From Bacillota bacterium (lineage in GTDB: Bacteria; Bacillota; Sulfobacillia; JACIYH01): a stretch of 34,978 nucleotides of DNA. The stretch is from assembly GCA_040757085.1 (NCBI GenBank), contig JBFLXJ010000014.1:1-34978 (forward strand), read 5' to 3'. Positions 2,731 to 34,467 of this stretch are shown here, piece by piece; the first letter of the stretch is position 1; each line of letters opens with the position of its first letter. The notes under the pieces were generated by a model. The model ran no database searches. It was given only the letters and a program-made list of their open reading frames with translations, and had not been told where the DNA came from. The translations under genes were made by a program, and so were the position numbers.

Positions 2731-3417
2731 CTACGTGTCCAGGACGAGTACCCCGGCCCTGACCAGCGCCTCGGTGAACGCCGTAGAGGGCGCAGGTCGC
2801 CACCGATATTCGTCGCGCAGGAACCATTCGAAAAGGGTGAACAGTGGATTGAGTGACAGGGACATTTTGAGGCGCTTTCCCAGGTCGTACAGCCCCACCC
2901 GCCCGCGTACGGCCGGGGACCGCAACAGGATGTCAGCAGCCGCCTGCTCGCGCCCGGCCAGAGGGGTGATGACCAGCACGTCGAAGCCCGGCGGCAGGTA
3001 TCCGATTCCCGCCGGAGAAAGGCGCACGACCACCGTCAGTGCGTGGCTCCGGTGGCGATACACGGCACCCCCCGCCAGTGGACCCTCCCCCGGCCGGTCC
3101 CCACGCAAATAACCGGCAAACTGCCCGGCCAGGACCCGCCAAGACACCGTGGCGGCCCCCAGGGAGATCGTCTCGCTCCACCTGAGGCCACCCAGCCATC
3201 TCAGGACCTCCCCTCGGCTCTCCCCGACGAGCTCGATGCCCTCCCCGGTGAGCCGGGCCAGCCTGGCGCTGACCAGGTAGTCCACGCTCGGGCACGGAGA
3301 GCCGAAACCCAGGAAGCGGAACTGCGCCTCCACCCCGGGCAGATCCAGGACCGCTCCGTCGGGGGAATCGGCTAGCATTTCCAGAAGGACCAATGCCGGA
3401 AGCGGCGCTCCTTCCAT
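2731..3417 (-). CDS. Hypothetical protein, unrecognised family
   Basis: The 228-residue product starts at an ATG at 3417, preceded on the minus strand by a purine-rich AAAGGGGGTCAGGGG ribosome binding site. A longer frame to 3492 lacks such support and runs into the pseudogene next door. The protein is soluble, rich in Leu, Gly and Arg, and has no predicted signal peptide, membrane helix or cysteine motif. I do not recognise it. A central stretch of alternating hydrophobic residues (VVVRLSPAGIGYLPPGFDVLVITPL) suggests beta structure. It lies directly downstream of the decayed ATPase fragment and the ThDP enzyme on the same strand, so it may have been part of that operon and may be losing its role. 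Confidence 0.65.
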   Translation of the reverse strand: MEGAPLPALVLLEMLADSPDGAVLDLPGVEAQFRFLGFGSPCPSVDYLVSARLARLTGEGIELVGESRGEVLRWLGGLRWSETISLGAATVSWRVLAGQFAGYLRGDRPGEGPLAGGAVYRHRSHALTVVVRLSPAGIGYLPPGFDVLVITPLAGREQAAADILLRSPAVRGRVGLYDLGKRLKMSLSLNPLFTLFEWFLRDEYRWRPAPSTAFTEALVRAGVLVLDT

Positions 3418-3488
3418 CCCCTGACCCCCTTTACCGGAGGCGCTAGCCCTTCCACCACATCGGCGGAGGAGGCTGTACCTTGCCCGCC

Positions 3489-3861
3489 TCACGAGAGGCG
3501 GTGGTCACCCGTCCCGCCCCCTTCCCGCAACTGACCGAGGCTGAGCAGCCGGCGCCTTCCCGCAACTGCCCGACCTTCCCGCAGGGGGCGGCGCAGGTCC
3601 ACGGCACCTGCCAGCCGGTCCTCGGTGGCGTTGAGAGGCAGATTGACCAGGCGGATGGGCGGGCGGAGCGACGGCAGCTGCTCCGAGGCCGCCCGGGCCT
3701 GGCAGCGCGGGCATAGTCCTCAGCAGACCGCGCACGAGCATTGACTTCGGGGTACCACTGGGACCCGATATCAGCACTTCGCCCAGGCGCGGGTTGACAG
3801 CATTGACGAGAAGTGCCCTCTTGACCTCCTCCTGGCCCACTACGGCACCAAAGGGAAACAT
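3489..3861 (-). pseudogene. Decayed magnesium chelatase ChlI-type AAA+ ATPase fragment
   Basis: The ATG at 3861 sits three bases after the ThDP enzyme stop. The frame begins with a clear ChlI N terminus: FPFGAVVGQEEVKRALL, then NAVNPRLGEVLI and a Walker A-like GPSGTPKSM, where the family has GxxGTAKS. Near 3715 the similarity leaves this frame. It resumes in another frame with CPRCQAR, then the ChlI segment LVNLPLNATEDRLAGAVDLRR, and stops at 3489-3491. Walker B, sensor and lid regions are absent. Two imperfect copies of CAGTTGCGGGAAGG occur near the 3' end. The fragment is therefore frameshifted and truncated and cannot make an active ATPase. The intact homologue in the window is the different ATPase encoded at 24.1-25.5 kb. 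Confidence 0.7.
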
Positions 3862-3864
3862 ATC

Positions 3865-5643
3865 CTACCTGATCTTCCTCTTGCCGAATGTGGGCTCCGC
3901 GGCCGGGATGGGCGGCATCTGCCATGTGGCGATCAGAGGTACGGGCAGGTCGCGGTCGATGATCACGTCCAACACAGTGGGACGGTTGGACTTGAGGGCG
4001 TGCTCGAACGCGGGCCCGAAGTCGGACGCCTTCTCCACCCTGATGCCCTGGCCGCCCATGGCCTCAGCCATGCGGGCGAAGTCGGGGTTCCACAGCTCTC
4101 CCGTGGATACCTTCCGGAAGCTGGTGCCGATCTCCCGGCCATCCAGGTAGAACCGCTGCAGATCGCGAATGCACCCGATGCTGTAGTTGTTGAGCACCAC
4201 CCACACCGCCGGCAGGTCGTACTCCACTGCGGTGGCCACCGCGTGGGGGGTCATTATGAAGCCACCGTCCGAGCACACGCACACGCACGGGGAATCGGGC
4301 CGGGCCAGTTTGGCACCCAGCACCCCGCACACGCCGAACCCCATGGCGGCGAAGCCACCTGGGCTGATGTGCGTGTATGGTCGCGGTGTCTGCCAGTACT
4401 GTTCGCACCAGGCCTGGTTGTTCCCCACGTCCACGACCAGGATCGTGTCTTCGGGGGCAATGCGCCTCATGTCGCCCAGCACGCGCCGCGGGTCGATGGG
4501 GTAGGCGGAGGATTCCAGGGCCGGACGCATGAACGCGTCCCACTCTCCCTTGAAGGCCCGGATTTCGTCCAGCCACGGGTAGTCCCCGCGGGGCTCGGTC
4601 CTCTGTCGGACCACCTCCAGCAACTGCTGCAGGAAGGCGCGCACGTCCGCGACGATGCCCAGCTCCACCGGGTAATTCCGCCCTATCTCGGCAACGTCTA
4701 TGTCTACCTGGATAAGCCGGGTGGGCGGGATGTTGTAGGCATAACCGGGGAGCCAGGAAGCCGTGTGCAGGTCGGAGAAACGACAGCCGAGGGCCAGGAT
4801 TACGTCCGCGTTGCGGGTGGCCTCCACGGCGGGGTAGTAACCCCAGCACCCCGTCACCCCCAGGTACAGAGGGTGATCCTCGGGCAGGACACCCTTACCC
4901 ATCAGGCTGGCGTACACGGGGATGTTAAGGTGTTCGGCCACCTGACGCAGTTCGCCGGTGGCGCGGGCTGCCATGACCCCGCCCCCCGCCAGGATCAAGG
5001 GCCTGCGGGCCTCGAGCAGGATGCCCAGGGCCTTCCGCACCGCTTCCGGAGAACCGGGGGTCCTCCCGTCCACCGGCGTGGACCACTCTTCGGGCTCGGG
5101 GATCGTCACCTCGGCCTTACACACGTATATGTCGTAGGGGACATCCAGGTGGCAGGGACCCGGCCTGCCCGTACGCATCAGCTTGTACGCTTTGGGCAGG
5201 TACTTGGCCAGCTGGTCCACCTTGTGCACCTGCCAGCTATGTTTCACTATGGGCTTGAAGATGGAAGGAAAGTCCGCCGGGAAGTAACGGTAGATTTCCT
5301 GCAGGGCGCCCGTGTCAAACTGGTCGGTGGCCGGGCACCCCGTTATGACCAGGAACGCAGATGAGTCGTAGAAGGCGTTGGCCACCGCTATGGTGAGGTT
5401 AGCAGGCCCGGGACCGGTGGAGGCGTACACGGGGAGCGGAACCCCCGTGAGCCGAAAGTACACGTCGGCCATGAATCCCGCCGCCTGCTCTATGCGCGGC
5501 CAGACGACCTTGATCTTGTCCGTGCGCTCGTAAATGCCGTCCAGCAACCCTATGGCTCCGTGACCCGCATACCCGAGGATGTAGGGGATCTTTTCTTTGA
5601 TCAGGTACTCGGCTATGATGTCGCAACCCCGGTACTCCGCCAT
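3865..5643 (-). CDS. Thiamine diphosphate-dependent enzyme, acetolactate synthase-like
   Basis: The 592-residue protein has the three-domain ThDP architecture. The Pyr domain holds the cofactor-activating glutamate E52 (PRIEQAAGFMAD) and a GPGPAN loop. A central Rossmann-like domain (about 195-330) follows. The PP domain carries the ThDP/Mg motif CSDGGFIM near residue 458 with the LNN asparagines near 484. The family cleaves or ligates 2-oxo acids, as in acetolactate synthase, benzoylformate decarboxylase, sulfoacetaldehyde acetyltransferase and oxalyl-CoA decarboxylase. The residue before the catalytic Glu is Ile rather than the usual His of acetolactate synthases, and no small regulatory subunit is encoded nearby, so a catabolic role is more likely than valine synthesis. 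The ATG at 5643 fits the family N terminus. A strong upstream SD serves a different, out-of-frame ATG at 5684. A sigma-54 promoter and the gene for a sigma-54 activator lie directly upstream. The substrate is unknown. Confidence 0.88.
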   Translation of the reverse strand: MAEYRGCDIIAEYLIKEKIPYILGYAGHGAIGLLDGIYERTDKIKVVWPRIEQAAGFMADVYFRLTGVPLPVYASTGPGPANLTIAVANAFYDSSAFLVITGCPATDQFDTGALQEIYRYFPADFPSIFKPIVKHSWQVHKVDQLAKYLPKAYKLMRTGRPGPCHLDVPYDIYVCKAEVTIPEPEEWSTPVDGRTPGSPEAVRKALGILLEARRPLILAGGGVMAARATGELRQVAEHLNIPVYASLMGKGVLPEDHPLYLGVTGCWGYYPAVEATRNADVILALGCRFSDLHTASWLPGYAYNIPPTRLIQVDIDVAEIGRNYPVELGIVADVRAFLQQLLEVVRQRTEPRGDYPWLDEIRAFKGEWDAFMRPALESSAYPIDPRRVLGDMRRIAPEDTILVVDVGNNQAWCEQYWQTPRPYTHISPGGFAAMGFGVCGVLGAKLARPDSPCVCVCSDGGFIMTPHAVATAVEYDLPAVWVVLNNYSIGCIRDLQRFYLDGREIGTSFRKVSTGELWNPDFARMAEAMGGQGIRVEKASDFGPAFEHALKSNRPTVLDVIIDRDLPVPLIATWQMPPIPAAEPTFGKRKIR

Positions 5644-5684
5644 GGCTCCCGCAGCAGGCTGCCATCCGCCCCGTCGGCAGCCAT
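5613..5684 (-). CDS. Possible 23-codon leader ORF overlapping the ThDP enzyme start
   Basis: An ATG at 5684 has the best ribosome binding site in this leader (AAAGGGGGGAG). It opens a short frame beginning MAADGADGSLLREP that stops inside the ThDP coding sequence, about 30 bases past the ATG at 5643. The two frames differ. Either this is a translated leader that couples to the enzyme start, or the SD acts at a distance, or an indel separates the true start from its SD. No protein family is recognised. Confidence 0.3.
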   Translation of the reverse strand: MAADGADGSLLREPWRSTGVATS

Positions 5685-5728
5685 GCTGCTCCCCCCTTTC
5701 CGAGAGAATTTCCGTCACGGCTTGTGGT

Positions 5729-5744
5729 CGCAATAACCGTGCCG
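5729..5744 (-). promoter_or_regulatory. Sigma-54 (-24/-12) promoter of the ThDP enzyme gene
   Basis: Read on the minus strand, the site is CGGCACG-GTTA-TTGCG. The invariant GG (5743-5742) and GC (5731-5730) are separated by exactly 10 bases, and GGCACG-N4-TTGC matches the consensus TGGCACG-N4-TTGCA apart from the outermost bases. Transcription would start near 5719, about 75 bases before the ThDP start codon. The gene immediately upstream encodes a sigma-54 activator. Confidence 0.8.
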
Positions 5745-5765
5745 GGAGGCAGAGCCCGGGGTGGA

Positions 5766-5786
5766 GTCAGAAACCGGGAATCTGAC
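5766..5786. promoter_or_regulatory. Inverted repeat GTCAGA-N9-TCTGAC, candidate activator site
   Basis: A perfect 6-bp dyad with a 9-base spacer is centred about 57 bp upstream of the predicted sigma-54 transcription start of the ThDP gene. It lies in the intergenic region and is a candidate enhancer for the adjacent Fis-type activator. Assignment is inference. Confidence 0.4.
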
Positions 5787-5856
5787 AGCACCAGGGACGT
5801 GCACGCACGACCGGAAGGGTCCTCGTGTCCCGCAACATCTGTCGTGATCTGCGCCA

Positions 5857-5877
5857 TGTGTCTTGCAATGCTACACA
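5857..5877. promoter_or_regulatory. Inverted repeat TGTGT-N11-ACACA, candidate enhancer
   Basis: A 5-bp dyad overlaps the last codons of the sigma-54 activator gene and is centred about 148 bp upstream of the predicted ThDP transcription start. That distance is normal for an enhancer bound by a sigma-54 activator. A single occurrence leaves this tentative. Confidence 0.35.
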
Positions 5878-7922
5878 AGGAAGGTGTCGGTCCCACCGGC
5901 CCACGTCCGGCGCACGACAATACCGTATTGCCGCATCTTCCGGTACAGAGAACTGCGCGCGATGCCCAGCCGCCTGGCAGCTGCCGCCACATTCCCCGTG
6001 CTCTGCTCCAGAGCCTCGGCAATGGCGAGCCGCTCTGCGTCGGCCAGACGCTTCACCGATGGCCGGGTAATGTGGCCCTCGGCCACGCGGAGCCCGCGCC
6101 GCAGGCCGGCCATCAGGTGCTCCGGCTCGAGGACGCCGGTCTGGGCGACGTTGATGGCGCACTCTATCACGTTCTCCAGTTCGCGCACGTTACCCGGCCA
6201 GTCGTGCGCCAGCAATAGCTCCAGCGCCCGGTTGCCAACGTCCTGCACGGACTTGCCCAGCTTGGTATTCAGTTTGTACAGGAAGTGACGGGCCAGCAGG
6301 GGTATGTCCTCTTTTCGCTCCCGCAGAGGGGGAATGACAATGGGGAAAACGTTCAACCGGAAGTACAGATCGCGTCGGAAGCTGCCCCGGGCCACCGCCT
6401 CGGACAGGTTCTTGTTGGTGGAGGCGATCACCCTCACATCCACCGGCGTCACCCGATGCCCCCCTATGCGCACCACCTGCCGGTCTTGGAGCACCCGTAA
6501 GAGCACCGCCTGCATGTCGAGCGGCATCTCTCCGATCTCGTCGAGGAAGATAGTGCCCCCATCGGCGAGCTCGAACTTCCCCGGGGACCCTTCCCTGCGC
6601 GCTCCGGTGAAAGCACCCTCCGCGTACCCGAAAAGCTCGCTTCCCACCAGTTCCCGAGGGATGGCAGCGCAGTTGATGGCCACGAATGCCCCGTCGCGCC
6701 TCCTGCCCGCATTGTGGATGGCGTGAGCGAACATCTCCTTGCCGGTACCGCTTTCCCCCTGCAGCAGAACGGTAGAAGAGCTCTCCGCCGCCGCGCGCGC
6801 CAGATCCACCGCCCGCCGGAAGCCGGGACTCTCCCCGATGATGTCGTCAAAGGTGAAAACGGCCTGGGCTCCGGCCATGCGATGGACCAATCTGCGCACG
6901 CTACGCATCTCCCTCAGGATGGCCATGGCGCCTATGACCGTGCAGCCGTCGCCCATCACCGGCTTGGCCGTCACCGTGGCGTGGAGGCGACCTGTACCCA
7001 GTTCCAGGTTGGTTTCCCGGTCCACGACTTCGCGGCCACTTTCCAGGATGGCAGCCAACCCCAACTGCCGGAACAGAAACTGGTCGAGGGGACGTCCTAC
7101 CGCTTCCCCCGCCTGCATCCCGAGCAAACGACCAGCCACGCTGTTGATGAGGGTAACCCGGCCGGCCGTATCCACCGAAACCAGTCCCTCGGACATGGAC
7201 TCGATCGTAGCCAGCAGGTAGCGATGGGCTACCAGCAGCCGGTCTGAGGCAGACGCCGCCCTTAGCTGATTCTCGATGGCCTGGGCGGCCGCCACCACCA
7301 TGCCCAGAGTGTGGGGATGAACGCGCCTGTAGTCTCCGGACATGGTAAGGACCCCGATCAGCCTCCCATCGGGGTCGTGGACGGCTGCACTGGAACAGGT
7401 CCAGGAATGGCATCCCACCCAGTAATGCTCCGCCCCGCACACCTGGATGGGACTGCCTGTCACCAGGCTGACACCTATGCCGCTGGTGCCCATTACCGCC
7501 TCAGACCACCTGACCCCGGGCACCAGCCAGATCTTTTCTGCTTCTCCCTCCGCATCTGCGTCGCCCACCAGCTCGAGCAGGTAGCCCTCCTCATCACAGA
7601 GGCAAACAACGAATCCCGAGCCCGCCACGAGCTCGTGCAGGCTGCGCATGAACGGCCTGGCCGCCTCGATCATGGCTCGCCTCCTGGCGAGACGCCCATC
7701 GAGCTCGCGCCCGGTGATCGCCACCCGCTCGACCCGCCAGGGATCCAGGCCGTGCTGCCTGCACCTCGCCCACGAGTCGGCTATCACCGGACGCACCACC
7801 TGCCGGTCAACCCGGCCGGTGCGCACGAATTCCTCCCAGGCCGAACGCAACCTGTCCTCGGGTATGCCCGAGATGGGGAACGTCAGCATATCCGATCCCC
7901 GCCGCCCTGCCGAAAAGTGCAC
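5871..7922 (-). CDS. Sigma-54-dependent transcriptional activator (GAF-PAS-AAA+-Fis)
   Basis: This protein of up to 683 residues resembles AcoR-type regulators. An N-terminal GAF-like sensor region (about 70-230, containing WSEAVMGTSGIG and VCGAEHYWVGCHSWTCSSAAV) is followed by a PAS domain (about 240-340). Next come a sigma-54 interaction AAA+ domain with Walker A GESGTGKE near 388 and GAFTGA near 433, and a C-terminal Fis-type helix-turn-helix (GNVAAAARRLGIARSSLYRKM). No receiver domain is present, so control is probably by direct sensing of a small molecule. The GTG at 7922 gives the longest form. An ATG at 7889 (MLTFPISG) is equally plausible because neither has a strong SD. The gene sits between the acyl-CoA transferase gene and a sigma-54 promoter for the ThDP enzyme, so activation of that promoter is the natural inference. 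Confidence 0.9.
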   Translation of the reverse strand: MHFSAGRRGSDMLTFPISGIPEDRLRSAWEEFVRTGRVDRQVVRPVIADSWARCRQHGLDPWRVERVAITGRELDGRLARRRAMIEAARPFMRSLHELVAGSGFVVCLCDEEGYLLELVGDADAEGEAEKIWLVPGVRWSEAVMGTSGIGVSLVTGSPIQVCGAEHYWVGCHSWTCSSAAVHDPDGRLIGVLTMSGDYRRVHPHTLGMVVAAAQAIENQLRAASASDRLLVAHRYLLATIESMSEGLVSVDTAGRVTLINSVAGRLLGMQAGEAVGRPLDQFLFRQLGLAAILESGREVVDRETNLELGTGRLHATVTAKPVMGDGCTVIGAMAILREMRSVRRLVHRMAGAQAVFTFDDIIGESPGFRRAVDLARAAAESSSTVLLQGESGTGKEMFAHAIHNAGRRRDGAFVAINCAAIPRELVGSELFGYAEGAFTGARREGSPGKFELADGGTIFLDEIGEMPLDMQAVLLRVLQDRQVVRIGGHRVTPVDVRVIASTNKNLSEAVARGSFRRDLYFRLNVFPIVIPPLRERKEDIPLLARHFLYKLNTKLGKSVQDVGNRALELLLAHDWPGNVRELENVIECAINVAQTGVLEPEHLMAGLRRGLRVAEGHITRPSVKRLADAERLAIAEALEQSTGNVAAAARRLGIARSSLYRKMRQYGIVVRRTWAGGTDTFLV

Positions 7923-7984: not shown

Positions 7985-9508
7985 TCACGGGAGCATGGTA
8001 CCAGTTTCGAGGTAGCGCTGATGCCAGGATAGCGCCTCACCGAGCATGTGCGGTGAGTGTCCGCCCTGCCGACAGGCCCGGGCGAAGTAATCCTCCAGCA
8101 GTGGGCGGTAGGCAGGATGGGCACAATGCGCGATGATCCTTTGCGCCCTCTCGCGGGGGCTCAGGCCCCGCAGGTCGGCCACGCCCTGCTCGGTGATGAG
8201 CACGTGCACCTCGTGCTCGGTGTGGTCCACATGCGACACCATGGGGACGATGCACGAGATCTTCCCGCCCCGCGCGGTCGAGGGACTTACGAAAATCGAA
8301 AGATAGGCGTTCCGCGAGAAGTCGCCCGAGCCGCCGATCCCGTTCAGCATCTGTGAGCCGAAGACGTGGCTCGAGTTCACGTGTGCGTAAATATCCACCT
8401 CCACCGCCGTGTTGATGGCGATCACGCCAAGCCGGCGGATGGCCTCGGCGCTGTTGGAAACCTCCTGCGGTCGGAGCACCAGGAAATGCCGGTACCGGTG
8501 CAGGTTCCGGTACAGGCGCTCCTGACCCGCCGACGAAAGGGCCAGCGAAGTGCCGGAGGCACCGCGGGCGACGCCGGCATCAATGAGGTCGAGGACGCCG
8601 TCCTGCAGAACCTCAGAAAAGAAGGCCAGACCGGGCCGGTCCCACTCTTCCAGGGCGTTCAGGACGGCATTGCCCACATTCCCGACCCCCGTCTGCAAAG
8701 GTAGCAGGGCGGGCGGTAGCCTGCCCGCTTGCACCTCGCCACGCAGGAACTCCACAAGCTGTCCGCCTATCTTGCGCGACGCGTCGTCGGGAACCTCGAA
8801 ACTATAAGGGTGATCCGGTCGGCACGTCACCACGATGGCGGCGATGCGGTCCGGGTCCACCCCGATGGCCGGAGCGCCGATGCGCTGCAGGGGTTCCACC
8901 AGAGGAAGGGGATCCCGACCGGGGGGCAGGGAATAACTCCAGATATCGTGCAGCCCCTCCATTTCGGGCGGATGCCATAGGTTGAGTTCCACTATGACCT
9001 TCTCGGCGGCAGCGACGTAGAGGGCGCTGTTCCCCACCGACGAGGTGGGCACGATCCCTCCGTCCTCCCGGATGGCGCATGCTTCCACCAGCGCCACATC
9101 GACCTTTCCCAGGTGGCCGGCCCTGACCATCTCCGGGCACCCGCCCAGATGCTGGTCCACGTAGGCAATCTCGCCCCGGTTGATGAGTTGACGCAGGTTG
9201 GCGAGGGACTGGTACGGTAGCCGGCGAACCATCGCACCCGCACTCGCGAGTTCCTCGTCGACCTCACCGCCCACCGAACCACCAGACCAGATGCTGAGCC
9301 GGAGGCGACGTCCTTCCCGAGCCTGGCGGGCGAGGGCGAGGGGAACTTCCTTGGGGCTACCCGCCCGCGCGAAGCCGCTCACGCCGACGACGGCTTCGTC
9401 AGGCACCACTTCAGCGGCCTCATCGGCGGTCATGAGCCGCCCCCGGAGCAGGGGGTCGCGTACCCTATCCCGGAGCCCCGCCCCCACTTCCATGTTCAGT
9501 TCGTGCAT
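7985..9508 (-). CDS. Acetyl-CoA hydrolase/CoA-transferase family I (Cat1/AarC-like)
   Basis: The 507-residue protein matches the family of acetyl-CoA hydrolases and succinyl-CoA:acetate or propionyl-CoA:succinate CoA-transferases. Visible motifs are VSGFARAGSPKEVP near the N terminus, the glycine-rich TGVGNVGNAVL, and FFSEVLQDG containing the glutamate (near residue 298) that forms the glutamyl-CoA thioester. Further on are GSGDFSRNA and a C-terminal TEQGVADLRGLSPRERA. The enzyme would move CoA between small carboxylic acids in the cytoplasm. It begins nine bases after the TAXI binding protein stop and so is very probably cotranscribed with the TRAP transporter. This suggests activation of the imported acid. 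The ATG at 9508 has a weak, distant SD; an in-frame ATG at 9493 is an alternative. The exact donor and acceptor are not readable. Confidence 0.9.
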   Translation of the reverse strand: MHELNMEVGAGLRDRVRDPLLRGRLMTADEAAEVVPDEAVVGVSGFARAGSPKEVPLALARQAREGRRLRLSIWSGGSVGGEVDEELASAGAMVRRLPYQSLANLRQLINRGEIAYVDQHLGGCPEMVRAGHLGKVDVALVEACAIREDGGIVPTSSVGNSALYVAAAEKVIVELNLWHPPEMEGLHDIWSYSLPPGRDPLPLVEPLQRIGAPAIGVDPDRIAAIVVTCRPDHPYSFEVPDDASRKIGGQLVEFLRGEVQAGRLPPALLPLQTGVGNVGNAVLNALEEWDRPGLAFFSEVLQDGVLDLIDAGVARGASGTSLALSSAGQERLYRNLHRYRHFLVLRPQEVSNSAEAIRRLGVIAINTAVEVDIYAHVNSSHVFGSQMLNGIGGSGDFSRNAYLSIFVSPSTARGGKISCIVPMVSHVDHTEHEVHVLITEQGVADLRGLSPRERAQRIIAHCAHPAYRPLLEDYFARACRQGGHSPHMLGEALSWHQRYLETGTMLP

Positions 9509-9517
9509 GATCTGTTG

Positions 9518-10516
9518 CTACTGTCCTTTCCACACCTGTTTTTCTTTGTAGTACCTGATCGCCCCGGGGTGGTAGGGGATGGGCGATCCCAGCACTGCCG
9601 TCTGCAGGGTCAGGTTCTTGGCTTCCTTGTGAACCGCGATCAGATCGGCCTGGTGTTCGAACATGGCCTTGACAATCTCGTACACCAGATTCTCGTCCAT
9701 CTTCTCGCTGGCCACTAGGAGGTTCCCTACCGCGCTCACGGGCACATCCGCGTCCACGTTGGGATACGTTCCCCGGGGGATAACAAGCGAGAAATACACG
9801 GGCCCGTACTTCTCGACCATCTTCTTGACCGCGTCCTCGTGGGGCAGGAGAGCTATCTTGATCCCCGGCGTGGCGGCCAGATCCAGTACGGCTGCCGTAG
9901 GCAGACCCCCGCTCCAGAAGAACGCGTCGATCTTGCGGTCCTTCAGGGCTCCAGCGGACTCGGAAACGCCCAGGCGATCGCGGACTATATCCTTGTCCGG
10001 GTCGAGACCGCAAGCCTCCAGTACCCGCAGGGCAATTACCTCCGTACCGCTACCGGGAGCACCGGTGGAAACCTTCTTACCGCGCAGGTCTGCCACTGAC
10101 CTGATGCCGCTGCCCTCGAGGACCACGATGTGCGTGAAGTTGCTGTACAGGGTTGCCAGGGTACGCAGGGGCACCTGACCGGTCTCCTTGAACTTACCCT
10201 GCCCTCGGAAGGCATCGTTGGCCGTGTCCGCCATGACGAAGGCAAGATCAGCCTTTCCTGCTCCGATCAATTTGCAATTGTCCACCGATGCCGCCGTGAC
10301 CTCGGCGGTGGCCTCGACCCCCTTGACGTACCTGGATACCAGCGCAGCCAGACCACCACCGTACACATAGTAAACACCACCCGTCCCGCCCGTGGCAATC
10401 GACAGCCTCCTGACCTGCGGCCTGGCGCATCCTTGCAGTGCCAGGGTAGTAACCATGAGCACCACCAGGACGCCCACCAGCCCGAGTGCCGCCACTGACC
10501 TCCTCGCCCTCAGCAT
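9518..10516 (-). CDS. TAXI family TRAP transporter solute-binding lipoprotein
   Basis: The 332-residue product begins with a basic N terminus, a hydrophobic core and a lipobox-like LQGC near residue 29, so it is probably a lipoprotein anchored outside the membrane. The mature part has the TAXI features IATGGTGGVYYVYGGGLAALV near its start, then an NCKLIGAGKADLAFVMAD segment, GKKVSTGAPGSGTEVIA and a DAFFWSGGLPT motif. TAXI proteins bind carboxylates such as glutamate or 2-oxoglutarate for TRAP transporters. The start codon directly abuts the stop of the permease gene, giving tight coupling. Gene order (permease before binding protein) is the reverse of many TAXI loci. The ligand is unknown. 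Confidence 0.92.
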   Translation of the reverse strand: MLRARRSVAALGLVGVLVVLMVTTLALQGCARPQVRRLSIATGGTGGVYYVYGGGLAALVSRYVKGVEATAEVTAASVDNCKLIGAGKADLAFVMADTANDAFRGQGKFKETGQVPLRTLATLYSNFTHIVVLEGSGIRSVADLRGKKVSTGAPGSGTEVIALRVLEACGLDPDKDIVRDRLGVSESAGALKDRKIDAFFWSGGLPTAAVLDLAATPGIKIALLPHEDAVKKMVEKYGPVYFSLVIPRGTYPNVDADVPVSAVGNLLVASEKMDENLVYEIVKAMFEHQADLIAVHKEAKNLTLQTAVLGSPIPYHPGAIRYYKEKQVWKGQ

Positions 10517-12469
10517 CTACGATCCTCCCCTCTCCGGGCCTCGCTCTCTTGCGACCCGGCGTTTCCCCGCCTTGTACCTCCACACGTGAATCCCGACAGC
10601 CAGAGCCACCGCACCTGCCCCCGCCAGATCCCGCCCCACAGCCGGGTACAGAAGCAACAGGCTGGCGGCACCCAGCAGGGCACGCTCAAGGGGATGGGCA
10701 GGCCCCAGCAGCCAGCCTCCCAGTGCGCCTGCCAGAGCCGCCACACCGGCCACCCCCGTCACCAGGGCCCACAGGACCTGCAGGGGAGGTGCCTTCAGCA
10801 GCAGCGCCGTCCCGGACGGGTGCAGGCTGAACATGAAGGGGACCAGAAAGGCAGGCAGGGTGTATTTCCAGGTGATCATCATGGTCCGGAAAGGATTACC
10901 GCCGGTCAGCGCCGCGGCCGCCACCGGCGACAGCGCCACGGGAGGCGAAACCTCCGAAAGGACCGCGTAGTAGAAGATGAACATGTGGGCAGCGAATTCA
11001 GGCACCCCCAGCTTGATCAGGGCCGGTGCGGTGATCACCGCCGCCACGATGTAGGATGCGGTTATGGGAAGTGCGAGCCCCAGCACCAGCAGCACCGCAG
11101 CGGTGAGGAGCAGGGTAAGAAGAAGGTTTCCGCCGGCCAGGTCCAAGATCACACTGGAGAACTTGAGCCCCAGACCGGTAAGGGTGACGACCCCCACTAT
11201 GATCCCGGCACAGGCACAGGTGGGGGCAACGGTGAGAATGCCCCGGGCACCGCTCTCCAGGGCACGGAACAATCGAGCGGGATGGAGGGCGGTATCGAGC
11301 CTGACGTAGCTAACAACTACGGCTATGAGAGTAGCCCAAAACACAGCCCATATGGCCGTGAACCCGGCGGCCATAAGGACGACTATGGTGATCAGCGAGG
11401 TGAAGTGATACCAGTAACGCCGTGCCAGTTCGCCCGCCCGGGGACCTTCCGCTGCCACCTCTGCCAGCGTGAACCGGCGGGCATCCACCTCGATCATCAG
11501 CAGGATGCCCAGGTAGTACAGGAGAGTGGGAATCGTCGCCATCATGATGACTTCCAGGTACGAGACCTTGAGGATCTCGGCGATGATGAAGGACGCCGCC
11601 CCCAGCACGGGAGGCGAAAGTACCGCCCCGATTCCGCCCGCCGCCAGCAGGGCTCCCGCCGTGTCCCTGTCGTATCCGGCTCGCTTGAGCAACGGATAGG
11701 CAACCGATCCCAGGGTAACGGTAGTTGCCACGCCGCTTCCCGAAACCGTCCCCAGGAGAAAAGAGGCGAGGGTCACGGTGCGACCGGCACTGGTCCTCCT
11801 GCGACCCATGGCGGCCAGCGAGAAATCGACGAAGAACTTGCCCGCCAGGGATTGCTCGAGCACTGCTCCGTAAATGGTGAAGAGAACGATGAATGTAGAA
11901 GATACATCTATGGGGACACCGAATATGCCCTCCAGGGTCATGTAGGTGTGCCCCACCAGCCGATCGAGTCCGTACCCTCTGTGGGCCCACGGCTCGGGCA
12001 GGTACGGGCCCAGCCAGGCGTAAGCCAGGAAACCGAGGGCTATGGTCGGCAGTGCGGGTCCCACCGTCCGGCGGGTCGCCTCCAGCACCAGCACGATCGT
12101 AATGGTCCCCATGACGAGATCGAGCCCGAGCGGCGAAGCTGAACGGTACACGAACTCCCCGAAATCCAGGAACATGTAACCCATGGGCAAGATGGCCAGA
12201 CCGGCCAGCGCCCAGTCCCACCAGTGTATGCTTGCGAAACGGTTCTTCCTGGCCGGGTACAGGAGAAAAGTCAACACGAGAACCAGAAGCAGGTGAATGC
12301 CGCGGTGAATCTGGGTGGTGACGGTGGACACGGCCGCGTAGAGGTGGTAGAGGGACGTGGCAACAGCCAGAATGGCCACGCCCGTACCCAGCCGTCCTGT
12401 CAGGGGGCGGGTAACGCCCTCGAACCGCTCTATCATTTCCTGCGCCTTTTCTGTCAAGTCTGAGGACAT
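10517..12469 (-). CDS. TRAP transporter fused permease (4TM-12TM)
   Basis: The 650-residue membrane protein fuses the small DctQ-like and large DctM-like TRAP subunits, as is usual with TAXI binding proteins. The N-terminal helices (about 25-130) are followed by the large domain, with motifs such as GSGVATTVTLGSVAYPLLKRAGYDRDTAGALLAAGGIGAVLSPPVLGAASFI in the middle. The C-terminal half repeats the fold (VGVVTLTGLGLKFSS). It would use a sodium or proton gradient to import a carboxylate delivered by the TAXI protein. The ATG at 12469 has an AGGAGG eight bases upstream. A C-terminal extension of several helices beyond the core is typical of the fused type. Confidence 0.93.
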   Translation of the reverse strand: MSSDLTEKAQEMIERFEGVTRPLTGRLGTGVAILAVATSLYHLYAAVSTVTTQIHRGIHLLLVLVLTFLLYPARKNRFASIHWWDWALAGLAILPMGYMFLDFGEFVYRSASPLGLDLVMGTITIVLVLEATRRTVGPALPTIALGFLAYAWLGPYLPEPWAHRGYGLDRLVGHTYMTLEGIFGVPIDVSSTFIVLFTIYGAVLEQSLAGKFFVDFSLAAMGRRRTSAGRTVTLASFLLGTVSGSGVATTVTLGSVAYPLLKRAGYDRDTAGALLAAGGIGAVLSPPVLGAASFIIAEILKVSYLEVIMMATIPTLLYYLGILLMIEVDARRFTLAEVAAEGPRAGELARRYWYHFTSLITIVVLMAAGFTAIWAVFWATLIAVVVSYVRLDTALHPARLFRALESGARGILTVAPTCACAGIIVGVVTLTGLGLKFSSVILDLAGGNLLLTLLLTAAVLLVLGLALPITASYIVAAVITAPALIKLGVPEFAAHMFIFYYAVLSEVSPPVALSPVAAAALTGGNPFRTMMITWKYTLPAFLVPFMFSLHPSGTALLLKAPPLQVLWALVTGVAGVAALAGALGGWLLGPAHPLERALLGAASLLLLYPAVGRDLAGAGAVALAVGIHVWRYKAGKRRVARERGPERGGS

Positions 12470-12546
12470 TGGATGGCCTCCTGTTCGACCCGCCCCCTGT
12501 TACCTCCCACCCCGGCAGGTCAACAGGCCGGCCGGGCTCAGACCGG

Positions 12547-13074
12547 TCACCTGCCGCCGAGCTGCCGAGGATCCTTCCTGGTGCACCAGGCCCACAACCG
12601 CGGGACCGCGCCCACCCTGAGAAACACCGGGCGTTCCCCGGCAAGCAGCCACAAGGGATAGGCACGACCACGCAGCCGGAGAGTTCGCTGCCCCAGTTCT
12701 GAGGGATGCACCCAAAACCCGCGTGTCGACCAGGCCACTGGCAGGCACCACTGGCCGTCGCCATCCGGTCGCGGTGAGCCCAAGCCGTAGTAATACAGGC
12801 AGGCCAGGCTGGGGCTCCTGACCGCCGTGAGACACACCCCCGTATCCTTCAGACAGAGGTCTTCCTCAACCGGCGCATCGTAAAGCGAATGCTGGTAGCG
12901 AAGAAAAGCATGCTCCCCGGGAAAAATGATCCAGCGGCCCACCAGACCCGCCTGCGGTTGCATCAGATCCAGCACCGTGACGGGAGAAAACAGATAACCC
13001 GCCGCAAGGGCAAGCACTCCGGCGGCAATCAATCGACCGGGCTTTGGGAAAAGCTTCGGGCTCGCGGCCGCCAC
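12547..13074 (-). CDS. DUF1850 domain protein (TAXI-TRAP associated)
   Basis: The 175-residue protein has one N-terminal hydrophobic segment (about 14-31) and an extracytoplasmic domain with the DUF1850 hallmark FLRYQHSLYDAPVEEDL (Y-x-HS...PV-x-E). DUF1850 proteins are regularly encoded beside TAXI-type TRAP permeases; their function is not established, though a role in transporter assembly or regulation has been supposed. It is the first gene of the transporter cluster, 77 bases before the permease. The GTG start is preceded by a GGGAGGCAGG ribosome binding site. No clear promoter is visible upstream, and I see no -24/-12 element there. Confidence 0.8.
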   Translation of the reverse strand: MAAASPKLFPKPGRLIAAGVLALAAGYLFSPVTVLDLMQPQAGLVGRWIIFPGEHAFLRYQHSLYDAPVEEDLCLKDTGVCLTAVRSPSLACLYYYGLGSPRPDGDGQWCLPVAWSTRGFWVHPSELGQRTLRLRGRAYPLWLLAGERPVFLRVGAVPRLWAWCTRKDPRQLGGR

Positions 13075-29170: not shown

Positions 29171-29186
29171 TGGCACGGAACTTGCA
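29171..29186 (+). promoter_or_regulatory. Perfect-consensus sigma-54 promoter
   Basis: The sequence TGGCACG-GAAC-TTGCA matches the -24/-12 consensus at every defined position, with GG at 29172-29173 and GC at 29184-29185 separated by 10 bases. Transcription would start near 29197, 45 bases before the CoA-transferase alpha start. Confidence 0.9.
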
Positions 29187-29241
29187 CGGCCGACCTGCAG
29201 GACTCCTCGCACGTGGGTCCCGAGCAAAGGAGGGCATGCGC

Positions 29242-30240
29242 ATGACCACGGCCGAAACAGAGGGCATCGGGCATCTATTCATGCTCCCCGATGTGGACGC
29301 GGCCCGCGCGCACTTTCGGGCCAAACCCAAGGGCATGGTGGATAAGGTCACCACCGTGAGCGAGGCGGTGACCCGCCTGATCCACGACGGGGATTACATC
29401 GCCATCGGAGGATTCGGGGCCAACCGCATCCCCACCGCAGTGCTGCACGAGATCGTGCGCCAGGGCAAACGGCACCTGGGGGTATCCGGGCACACGGCCA
29501 CCCACGACTTCCAGATCCTGGCCGCAGGTGGATGCATTGACCGCTGCGACGTGGCCTACGTGGTGGGGCTGGAAGCCCGCGGCCTCTCCCGCGTTGCCCG
29601 GCGGCTGTTCGAGGAGGGGGCTATCCAGGCCACCGAGTGGACCAACGCCGCTCTCGCCTGGCGGTACAGGGCGGCGGCTATGGGCATCCCCTTCATCCCG
29701 GCCCGCATCATGCTGGGCACCGACACCGTGAGGTACAGCGCGGCAAAGGTGATCACCTGCCCCTACACGGGAATCAAGCTGGTGGCCCTGCCCGCCCTCT
29801 ACCCGGACGTGGCCATCATCCACGTACACCGGGCCGACCCCTATGGCAACTGCCAGATCGACGGTATCAACGTGGCCGACAACGACCTGGCGCGGGCTGC
29901 CAGGCGGGTGATCATCACCACCGAGCGGCTGGTGCCCCCGTCGGTGATCAGGCAGGAACCTCACCGCACGGCCATCCCCTTCTTCTGTGTAGACGCGGTG
30001 ATCGAGGTCCCATACGGCTCGTATCCCGGCAACATGCCTTACGAGTACTTCTCCGACGAGGAACATTTGCGCCAGTGGCTGACCGCGCAGGAAGACCTCG
30101 AGACCTTCCGGCAATTCATGGACAAATACATCTACGGGCCCCGGGACTTCAACGATTACCTGCAACTGTGCGGCGGCATCGAGAAACTGCGGCGGCTGCG
30201 CGCCCTGGAACTCGGGCTCGAGCGCCCGAACTCGGCGTGA
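29242..30240 (+). CDS. CoA-transferase alpha subunit (glutaconate CoA-transferase type)
   Basis: The 332-residue protein has the family I alpha-subunit layout of glutaconate CoA-transferase GctA: MVDKVTTVSEAVTRLIHDGDYIAIGGFGANR, the CoA-binding glycine-rich stretch, and a GNCQIDGINVADNDLARAARRVIITTE segment. The catalytic glutamate is on the beta subunit. AGGAGG at 29228-29233 lies eight bases before the ATG at 29242 but only two before the ATG at 29236, so 29242 is chosen. It is the first gene after a perfect sigma-54 promoter and is followed 12 bases later by the beta subunit. The acid substrate could be glutaconate or another dicarboxylate or branched acid; no glutaconyl-CoA decarboxylase or dehydratase is in view. 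Confidence 0.9.
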   Translation: MTTAETEGIGHLFMLPDVDAARAHFRAKPKGMVDKVTTVSEAVTRLIHDGDYIAIGGFGANRIPTAVLHEIVRQGKRHLGVSGHTATHDFQILAAGGCIDRCDVAYVVGLEARGLSRVARRLFEEGAIQATEWTNAALAWRYRAAAMGIPFIPARIMLGTDTVRYSAAKVITCPYTGIKLVALPALYPDVAIIHVHRADPYGNCQIDGINVADNDLARAARRVIITTERLVPPSVIRQEPHRTAIPFFCVDAVIEVPYGSYPGNMPYEYFSDEEHLRQWLTAQEDLETFRQFMDKYIYGPRDFNDYLQLCGGIEKLRRLRALELGLERPNSA

Positions 30241-30252
30241 GGAGGTGCCGAG

Positions 30253-31035
30253 ATGGGTCATCAGGCGAACGAGTATAACCCCATGGAGCTCATGATCTGC
30301 CTGGCGGCCAGGTACCTGGAAGATGGGCGCACGGTGGTGGTCGGTACCGGTGCCCCCTGCGCCGCGGCCATGCTGGCCCAAAAGCTGTATGCTCCCAACC
30401 TGATCATCCTCTTCGAGGCAGGTGGCGTGGCCCCCATCCTCCCCACCATGCCCATCTCGGTGGGCGATTCCCGCACTTTCTGGAAAGCGTTCATGGCCAC
30501 CACCATGGACGACATCATGTCCTTCTGCCAGAAGGGGATGGTGGACTACACCTTCCTGGGCGGGGCGCAGGTGGACATGTACGGCAACATCAATTCCACC
30601 ATGATAGGCACCGACTACTCCCGGCCCCGGGTGAGGCTTCCCGGCAGCGGGGGTGCCAACGACCTGGGGTCTCTGTGCTGGCGGATCATGATGATCACCC
30701 CCCAGGATCGCCGCCGCTTCGTGCCCAGGTGCGACTTCATCACCACCCCGGGTTACCTGACCGGACCCGGGGCCCGCGAGGCGGCAGGGCTTCCCCCGGG
30801 CACCGGCCCCTACAAGGTCATCACCAATTTGTGCGTCATCGGCTTCCACGAAGAGACCAAGCGCATGCAGGTGGAGAGCCTGCACCCCGGCATCACCCGG
30901 GAGCTGGTGGAACAGAACACGGGGTTCGAGTTGCTGTGGGCAGATGAAGTGGGCCAGAGTGAACCACCCACGCGAGAAGAACTCCAGGTGCTTCGGCACG
31001 AGGTCGATCCCTACCGCTACATCATCGGCCGCTGA
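30253..31035 (+). CDS. CoA-transferase beta subunit (glutaconate CoA-transferase type)
   Basis: The 260-residue beta subunit carries the active-site glutamate E55 (LFEAGGVAP), the position at which this family forms the glutamyl-CoA thioester. It also has FLGGAQVDMYGNIN and LPGSGGANDLGS, both typical of GctB-like subunits. The ATG is preceded by GAGGAGGTG spanning the alpha-subunit stop, giving coupled translation. With the alpha subunit it forms a cytoplasmic heteromer that swaps CoA between an acyl-CoA (often acetyl-CoA) and a free acid. Confidence 0.9.
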   Translation: MGHQANEYNPMELMICLAARYLEDGRTVVVGTGAPCAAAMLAQKLYAPNLIILFEAGGVAPILPTMPISVGDSRTFWKAFMATTMDDIMSFCQKGMVDYTFLGGAQVDMYGNINSTMIGTDYSRPRVRLPGSGGANDLGSLCWRIMMITPQDRRRFVPRCDFITTPGYLTGPGAREAAGLPPGTGPYKVITNLCVIGFHEETKRMQVESLHPGITRELVEQNTGFELLWADEVGQSEPPTREELQVLRHEVDPYRYIIGR

Positions 31036-31183
31036 CCCGGCCATCTGCGAGCACGGGCGGCAGCCGGCGTCCCCTGAAGATCCCCGGTCTCGGTCTCGCT
31101 CCCGCAGCCACACCGCGACCACCCGCCCCCCGGGCAGGGTGCTCGCACTCTTCGTAGAACAACTCTTCAGGAGGTGCGTCGCG

Positions 31184-32932
31184 GTGCGCGCCCGCTACCT
31201 GCTCCTGCAAAAGGCAGAAGCCATCCTGCTGGAAGAAAAGGCAGATAAACTGTTCGGGATAACCCGCCTCCTCGATGCATACCTGAAGGGCGAATACGAC
31301 GACATCCTGCGGTCCCGGGGCATTCCCTCCCACGCTCCCCGGGAACAAAGGCTGGCAGCGCTCAACGAGGCTCTGGCCCCTTTCACCGACCTGGTGGCAG
31401 CCGCCTTCCCCGGCGTGGGGGTCGGGTACTACTCCGCCGGCCTGGACTGCATCCTCACCTACGGACCCAGCAGCGAGTTTGGCGACAAGGTGGGCGTAAC
31501 GGTAGATGCCGACCACCTGGGCCGGCAGGCCATGGCCCAAAGGCGCGAGGTGGTAGGAGTCGGCTCCATGGTGCGGGGCGACATAATGAATTGCATGCGA
31601 CCTCTTCTGCGGGGCGACCGCACCATCGGATTTTGCTGGGCCAACGAGACCCTCGAGGACATTTACCGCCAGATGGAGTTCCGGGCACGCAAGGTCTTTT
31701 TCTCACCACGTGTGGAACCCGTGCTGGGCCTCACCGGACTGCTCCTTTCCTCCAGCCGCTCCCTGCTGGCCAGCCTGCGGCCACCTGAGAGGCAGCCGCC
31801 AGAGGAGCCGCCGCGCCCGAGGCGATCCGCAGACCTGGGGGACCTGGCCTGGTCGCTGGATCGCATCAGACGGTATCTATCGCTCTTCCTGAACAGCCTG
31901 AGCCTGGGCGTGTTGATCGCCGACCACCAGGGACAGGTGGCATTCGCCAACCAGGCGCTGATCGACCTGGCCGGCGCCCCGCCGGCCTTGGTGGGCATGC
32001 CCCTGCCGGATGCCCTCACATTGCTGGGATTCGGCGACCTGGTGGCAGAGGCCGGGGAGCTGGCGCACACGGGCGAACGCTACCGCTTCATCTCCCACAC
32101 CCTGAGGACAGCCGGACGTCCTCCGCGGCCGGTCCGGATCATTCTTTCCCGGGTTGAAGACCTGCCCGGGGAGGGGGCCGGATTTGTCTTCCTGGTGGAA
32201 GACGAGGCCGCTGCCCGGGAAGAGGAAGAACGCCTGCGCCGGGCTGAAAAGCTGGCCGCCGTGGGTGAGCTGGCATCCGCCATCGCCCACGAAATAAAGA
32301 ACCCGGTGACCATCGTGGCCGGGTGCCTCCAGCTTCTCGGCCCCCGGGCGGGGGACCGGGACTTCGTGGCGGAGACCGCTCGCATCGCCAGTGAGGAACT
32401 GGGACGGGTCAACCGCACGGTCAACGCCCTCCTGGACTTCGCCCGTTTCTCCGAGCCCCATCTGGCGCCCACCGACATCAACCAGGTCCTGCGGCGTGCC
32501 ACCGCGCTGGTACGAGACTACGCTCGTTCCCAGCGGGTGGAGATGGTGGAGGAATATGGGGAACTCCCCCTCGTGAGCGCCGATCCCGACCACCTGCAGC
32601 AGGCTTTCCTGAACCTGCTCATCAACGGCATCCAGGCCATGCCCCGTGGCGGTACCCTGGGTGTGCGGACTTCGTACAGGCAGGGTAGCCAGCTGGTTCA
32701 GGTAGAGGTGGCGGACACGGGCGAAGGGATCAAACCCGAGGATCGCAGCCGCGTATTCAGCATGTTCTTCACCACCAAAAGCGGGGGGACGGGACTGGGC
32801 CTGGCCCTGGTACACCGCATCGTGGACGAGCATGCGGGAATGGTGGAATTCGAGAGCGAACCGGGCAAGGGCACCAGGTTCCTCGTCCACCTGCCGGTCC
32901 AGGTCGTCGCCTGGCCCGACCGACCCTGGTGA
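31184..32932 (+). CDS. PAS-domain sensor histidine kinase, cytoplasmic
   Basis: The 582-residue protein starts at a GTG with AGGAGG nine bases upstream; a longer frame to 30944 overlaps the preceding gene. It has no predicted membrane helix. An N-terminal sensor-like region (about 1-215, with GVGYYSAGLDCILTYGPS and a conserved-looking VGSMVRGDIMNCMRP) is followed by a PAS domain (about 234-345). The kinase core has H-box AIAH369EIKNP, N-box NLLINGIQAM near 477, DTGEGIKPED and a TGLGLALV G-box near 540. It would sense a cytosolic signal, perhaps a CoA-transferase substrate, and phosphorylate the regulator encoded next. The 3' end overlaps the regulator's longest possible start. Confidence 0.92.
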   Translation: MRARYLLLQKAEAILLEEKADKLFGITRLLDAYLKGEYDDILRSRGIPSHAPREQRLAALNEALAPFTDLVAAAFPGVGVGYYSAGLDCILTYGPSSEFGDKVGVTVDADHLGRQAMAQRREVVGVGSMVRGDIMNCMRPLLRGDRTIGFCWANETLEDIYRQMEFRARKVFFSPRVEPVLGLTGLLLSSSRSLLASLRPPERQPPEEPPRPRRSADLGDLAWSLDRIRRYLSLFLNSLSLGVLIADHQGQVAFANQALIDLAGAPPALVGMPLPDALTLLGFGDLVAEAGELAHTGERYRFISHTLRTAGRPPRPVRIILSRVEDLPGEGAGFVFLVEDEAAAREEEERLRRAEKLAAVGELASAIAHEIKNPVTIVAGCLQLLGPRAGDRDFVAETARIASEELGRVNRTVNALLDFARFSEPHLAPTDINQVLRRATALVRDYARSQRVEMVEEYGELPLVSADPDHLQQAFLNLLINGIQAMPRGGTLGVRTSYRQGSQLVQVEVADTGEGIKPEDRSRVFSMFFTTKSGGTGLGLALVHRIVDEHAGMVEFESEPGKGTRFLVHLPVQVVAWPDRPW

Positions 32933-32946
32933 AAGGCGGAGGGAGT

Positions 32947-34467
<1,521 letters not shown>

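Follow-up and report, generated by a model that had tools for sequence, protein, structure and literature searches.

Sigma-54-dependent operons in which the activator is encoded beside its target are known from Clostridiales, where the enhancer-binding protein (EBP) is of the Fis type with a GAFTGA loop (BMC Genomics 2019, PMC6615313). The same survey describes a class of upstream activating sequence (UAS) of the form TGT-N10-12-ACA, situated 100–250 bp upstream of the promoter (PMC6615313). The locus described here lies in a window (the whole stretch of DNA analysed, 34,978 nucleotides) from a Bacillota bacterium. It resembles the Clostridiales operons in having a Fis-type GAFTGA EBP gene beside its probable target, and a candidate UAS whose type and distance to the -24/-12 element both fit. 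It differs in that the target would be an acetolactate-synthase-like enzyme, and no orthologous EBP group matched. It is an ordinary sigma-54 arrangement for such a bacterium, and its kind is already known.

The features of the locus are as follows.

5871–7889, minus strand: sigma-54 activator (EBP), GAF-PAS-AAA+(GAFTGA)-Fis HTH, DhaR/AcoR-like, from domain and motif matches
5857–5877, minus strand: candidate enhancer (UAS), TGTGTAGCATTGCAAGACACA, spanning the stop codon of the activator gene, centre at about -149, with a counterpart in the related genome G040
5760–5792, minus strand: imperfect 12-nt inverted repeat or hairpin, from repeat search and folding
5729–5744, minus strand: putative sigma-54 -24/-12 promoter element CGGCACGGTTATTGC(G), from a pattern match, with a counterpart in G040
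about 5718, minus strand: predicted transcription start (+1), from the spacing to the -12 box
3865–5643, minus strand: ThDP-dependent acetolactate-synthase-like enzyme, likely promoter target, from domain matches
3505–3861, minus strand: remnant ChlI-like AAA ATPase gene, whose intact form at locus L065 encodes 363 aa
2731–3492, minus strand: conserved partner protein, probable later operon gene, found near the ThDP gene in relatives

The activator and RpoN

The product of 7889–5871 has GAF, PAS, Sigma54_activat and AAA lid domains and a Fis-type HTH (PF02954, 48.1 bits), and its GAFTGA loop is exact. The combination of Sigma54_activat, GAFTGA and Fis HTH therefore identifies it as a sigma-54 activator. 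The domain order GAF-PAS-AAA-Fis is common to DhaR/AcoR-type activators, and DhaR is the best NCBIfam match, but at 439 bits the protein falls below the equivalog cut-off of 551. The neighbouring genes examined included none recognised as dihydroxyacetone kinase or acetoin dehydrogenase.

The preliminary description of this DNA named absence of rpoN as grounds for giving up the promoter. That objection falls, since the genome has one rpoN: the protein matches the full-length TIGR02395 model at 378.7 bits (cut-off 277), its DNA-binding domain is matched at 4.5e-55, and its C-terminal end carries the RpoN box RRTVAKYRAELGIAPS.

In line upstream of the activator, on the minus strand at 7985–13074, are genes for a succinyl-CoA:acetate CoA-transferase, a TAXI-family TRAP binding protein and a fused TRAP permease. 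None of the window's 15 best sigma-54 matches lies upstream of this cluster.

The putative promoter element

A near-consensus sigma-54 site with exact GG-N10-GC spacing had been claimed between the activator gene (7889–5871) and the ThDP gene (5643–3865), and such a site is present. Minus-strand positions 5744–5730 read CGGCACGGTTATTGC, with one mismatch to TGGCACG-N4-TTGC in 11 defined bases; the departures from consensus are C for T at the first base and G for A/T at the last. The start predicted near 5718 agrees with the one proposed earlier and would give the ThDP mRNA a leader of ~75 nt before the start at 5643.

When the window is ranked with an approximate sigma-54 weight matrix based on published sites, CGGCACGGTTATTGC comes second and a perfect site, TGGCACGGAACTTGCA at 29171–29186 (plus strand), comes first. 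Sites as good as CGGCACGGTTATTGC are expected 1.9 times per Markov-shuffled window, versus 2 observed; by sequence alone its score is weak and, window-wide, not beyond chance. The chance of such a site in the 227-bp activator–ThDP gap, on the coding strand only, is ~0.006. No sigma-70-like promoter or -35/-10 match was found in 5560–6000. Across the genome, a pattern search allowing at most one mismatch gives 19 sigma-54 sites, versus 10 for the reversed control.

For six of 12 GAFTGA activators examined in this genome, the 320 nt that follow on the same strand contain a site scoring at least 12; two of the 12 come from the window, and the 5729–5744 element is one of the six. The background is 1.5% of random stretches (binomial P ~1e-8 for 6/12), and the layout of activator, promoter and target is therefore common in this genome. 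One of the six sites, CGGCATGCTTCTTGCG at L118, shares the C...G variants of CGGCACGGTTATTGC, and two further activators of the genome have a near-perfect site upstream on the opposite strand.

The perfect site TGGCACGGAACTTGCA is a stronger sigma-54 case than 5729–5744. It lies upstream of a CoA-transferase A/B pair (29236–31035). Behind the pair, at 31169–34467, come genes for an AtoS-like kinase and a GAFTGA-bearing AtoC-like response regulator.

Comparison between genomes

A search covering 154 genomes from the class and ~400 from the phylum turned up few close relatives of the ThDP enzyme. One syntenic relative with the activator–ThDP pair was found, G040. Its ThDP enzyme is 77% identical and is directly preceded, in the same orientation, by an activator that is 57% identical. 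The G040 gap carries TGGCAGGGTTCTTGCG (L062:4307), 127 nt before the start codon, with a chance of ~0.0085; since aligning the two gaps with MAFFT failed to bring promoter opposite promoter, positions were compared by distance.

Orthologues with no activator beside them also have no such element: no site scores above 8.6 in G016 (92%), a Chloroflexi MAG (77%) and G231 (63%), nor at five alphaproteobacterial loci checked, which likewise have no neighbouring activator. Two of these orthologues have -35/-10 promoters instead, TTGACA-17-TAGATT in G016 and TTGACT-17-TATAAT in the Chloroflexi MAG. For more distant ThDP relatives (45–51%), the surroundings retrieved showed no convincing -24/-12 site before the gene, and the annotated stretches contained no recognisable activator. 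Thus the activator, the stop-codon dyad and the -24/-12 site come and go together, the positive side of this co-occurrence being two loci.

The two dyads

Two dyads had been placed at enhancer distances, with the suggestion that their conservation upstream of orthologues be checked. The check separates them: 5857–5877 is kept in G040, and 5766–5786 has no counterpart seen in the G040 gap.

The dyad 5857–5877 is a perfect short inverted repeat, TGTGT-N11-ACACA. Its G040 counterpart, TGTGACATCCTGGAACACACA (21 bp, L062:4155–4175), also lies over the activator's stop codon, and the two are ~110–150 bp upstream of the -24 box. They match as TGTG-N13-CACA, with TGT-N11-ACA within both; they have the TGTG/CACA ends and part of the inner bases in common, but not the whole sequence. 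The exact pattern, which was derived from these two dyads, occurs once per genome in both the window genome and G040. A search for TGTG-N11-15-CACA downstream of other homologous activators gave no match, which is what separate enhancers for the individual activators would predict.

The dyad 5766–5786, GTCAGA-N9-TCTGAC, extends to 12-nt arms (83%) over 5760–5792. As RNA this repeat folds into a stable hairpin (-22.5 kcal/mol, z -2.67), with no T run. It seems unlikely that both dyads are enhancer sites, as was first proposed. Both are perfect short inverted repeats, and multiple UAS are present at many targets in Clostridiales (PMC6615313), but 5766–5786 lies only some 48–68 bp upstream of the predicted +1, which is too close to the promoter, is unrelated in sequence to 5857–5877, is not conserved, and would form its hairpin in the activator mRNA. 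With low confidence, the repeat 5760–5792 can be read as a 3′ structure of that mRNA rather than an enhancer, or else as an unrelated site.

Alternative readings

Could the element be a coincidental GG-N10-GC in a gap rich in G+C, with the ThDP gene read from a promoter of another class or by transcription running on from the activator gene? The frequency of equal scores in shuffled windows agrees with this, as do the -35/-10 promoters of the G016 and Chloroflexi orthologues, and the genes from 13074 to 2731 run in the same direction, so that read-through is possible. Against it stand the low chance at the level of the gap, the independent site in the G040 gap, the absence of a -35/-10 match around the gap, the stable hairpin between activator and promoter, and the five other activators of the genome with the same layout; a chance match is thus improbable. 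It is very improbable that a genuine promoter here answers to another of the genome's activators, with the adjacent one controlling something else: the genome has at least 12 GAFTGA EBPs, and EBPs encoded apart from their targets are known (PMC6615313), but activator, stop-codon dyad and promoter occur together in G040, activator-less orthologues also have no promoter of this class, and the dyad pattern is single in each of the two genomes from which it was derived.

The comparisons of gap and genome point to 5729–5744 being, very probably, a genuine -24/-12 promoter that serves the ThDP gene, and probably the partner gene as well, and is fired by the adjacent activator. The tie between activator and ThDP gene proposed in the preliminary description is thus borne out by the presence of rpoN, the conserved G040 site and the recurrence of this layout next to other activators encoded in the genome.

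The ThDP enzyme and the genes behind the promoter

The ThDP gene product has three ThDP-enzyme domains, which it shares, along with overall similarity, with the biosynthetic acetolactate synthase large subunit (TIGR00118). It differs in scoring 419.7 against the TIGR00118 cut-off of 538.35, whereas a second gene of the genome, on contig C27, passes at 665 and adjoins ilvD. By this test the window enzyme is therefore not the valine enzyme, in keeping with the earlier view that it does not serve constitutive valine synthesis. The genes surrounding its counterparts in Chloroflexi and alphaproteobacteria did not show what its substrate is.

The partner gene 2731–3492 is probably cotranscribed with the ThDP gene. 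Counterparts of 20–41% identity lie close to the ThDP gene in the Firmicutes genomes G040, G231 and G016 as well as in the Chloroflexi MAG; the protein has no Pfam match, and a C-terminal KM...LR region is conserved. Between the two genes, the ChlI-like remnant (3505–3861) consists of the first ~52 matching residues only. At the related loci L065 and L066 an intact ATPase gene is followed by a VWA-domain gene, which is missing in the window. A 23-codon out-of-frame ORF (5684–5613, minus strand) with a strong ribosome site, GGGGGGAG, runs across the ThDP start codon. The ribosome site of the ThDP gene itself is weak, and translational coupling is possible.

Proposed mechanism and significance

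RNA polymerase carrying sigma-54 would bind 5729–5744 and wait there as a closed complex. The activator, made from the gene just upstream, may bind the dyad 5857–5877 and loop over to it, and its GAFTGA loop, with ATP hydrolysis, would open the promoter when GAF/PAS detects its signal. The proposal that this signal is carbon or nitrogen status is not supported: sigma-54 does not imply it, and the sensing domains of the activator are GAF and PAS.

The locus also illustrates how joint conservation of activator, enhancer and promoter can rescue a match that is individually non-significant. Perhaps, and this is put forward tentatively, this widespread ThDP family changes promoter class with its neighbourhood, having sigma-54 and a sensor-activator in some lineages and a -35/-10 promoter in others. 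If so, the switch would come with a dedicated sensor-activator, and the ligand of the activator would therefore point to the substrate of the ThDP enzyme. The activator and the ThDP gene form a testable regulator–target pair for the enzyme family, and the arrangement suggests an enzyme induced as needed, not a housekeeping valine enzyme.
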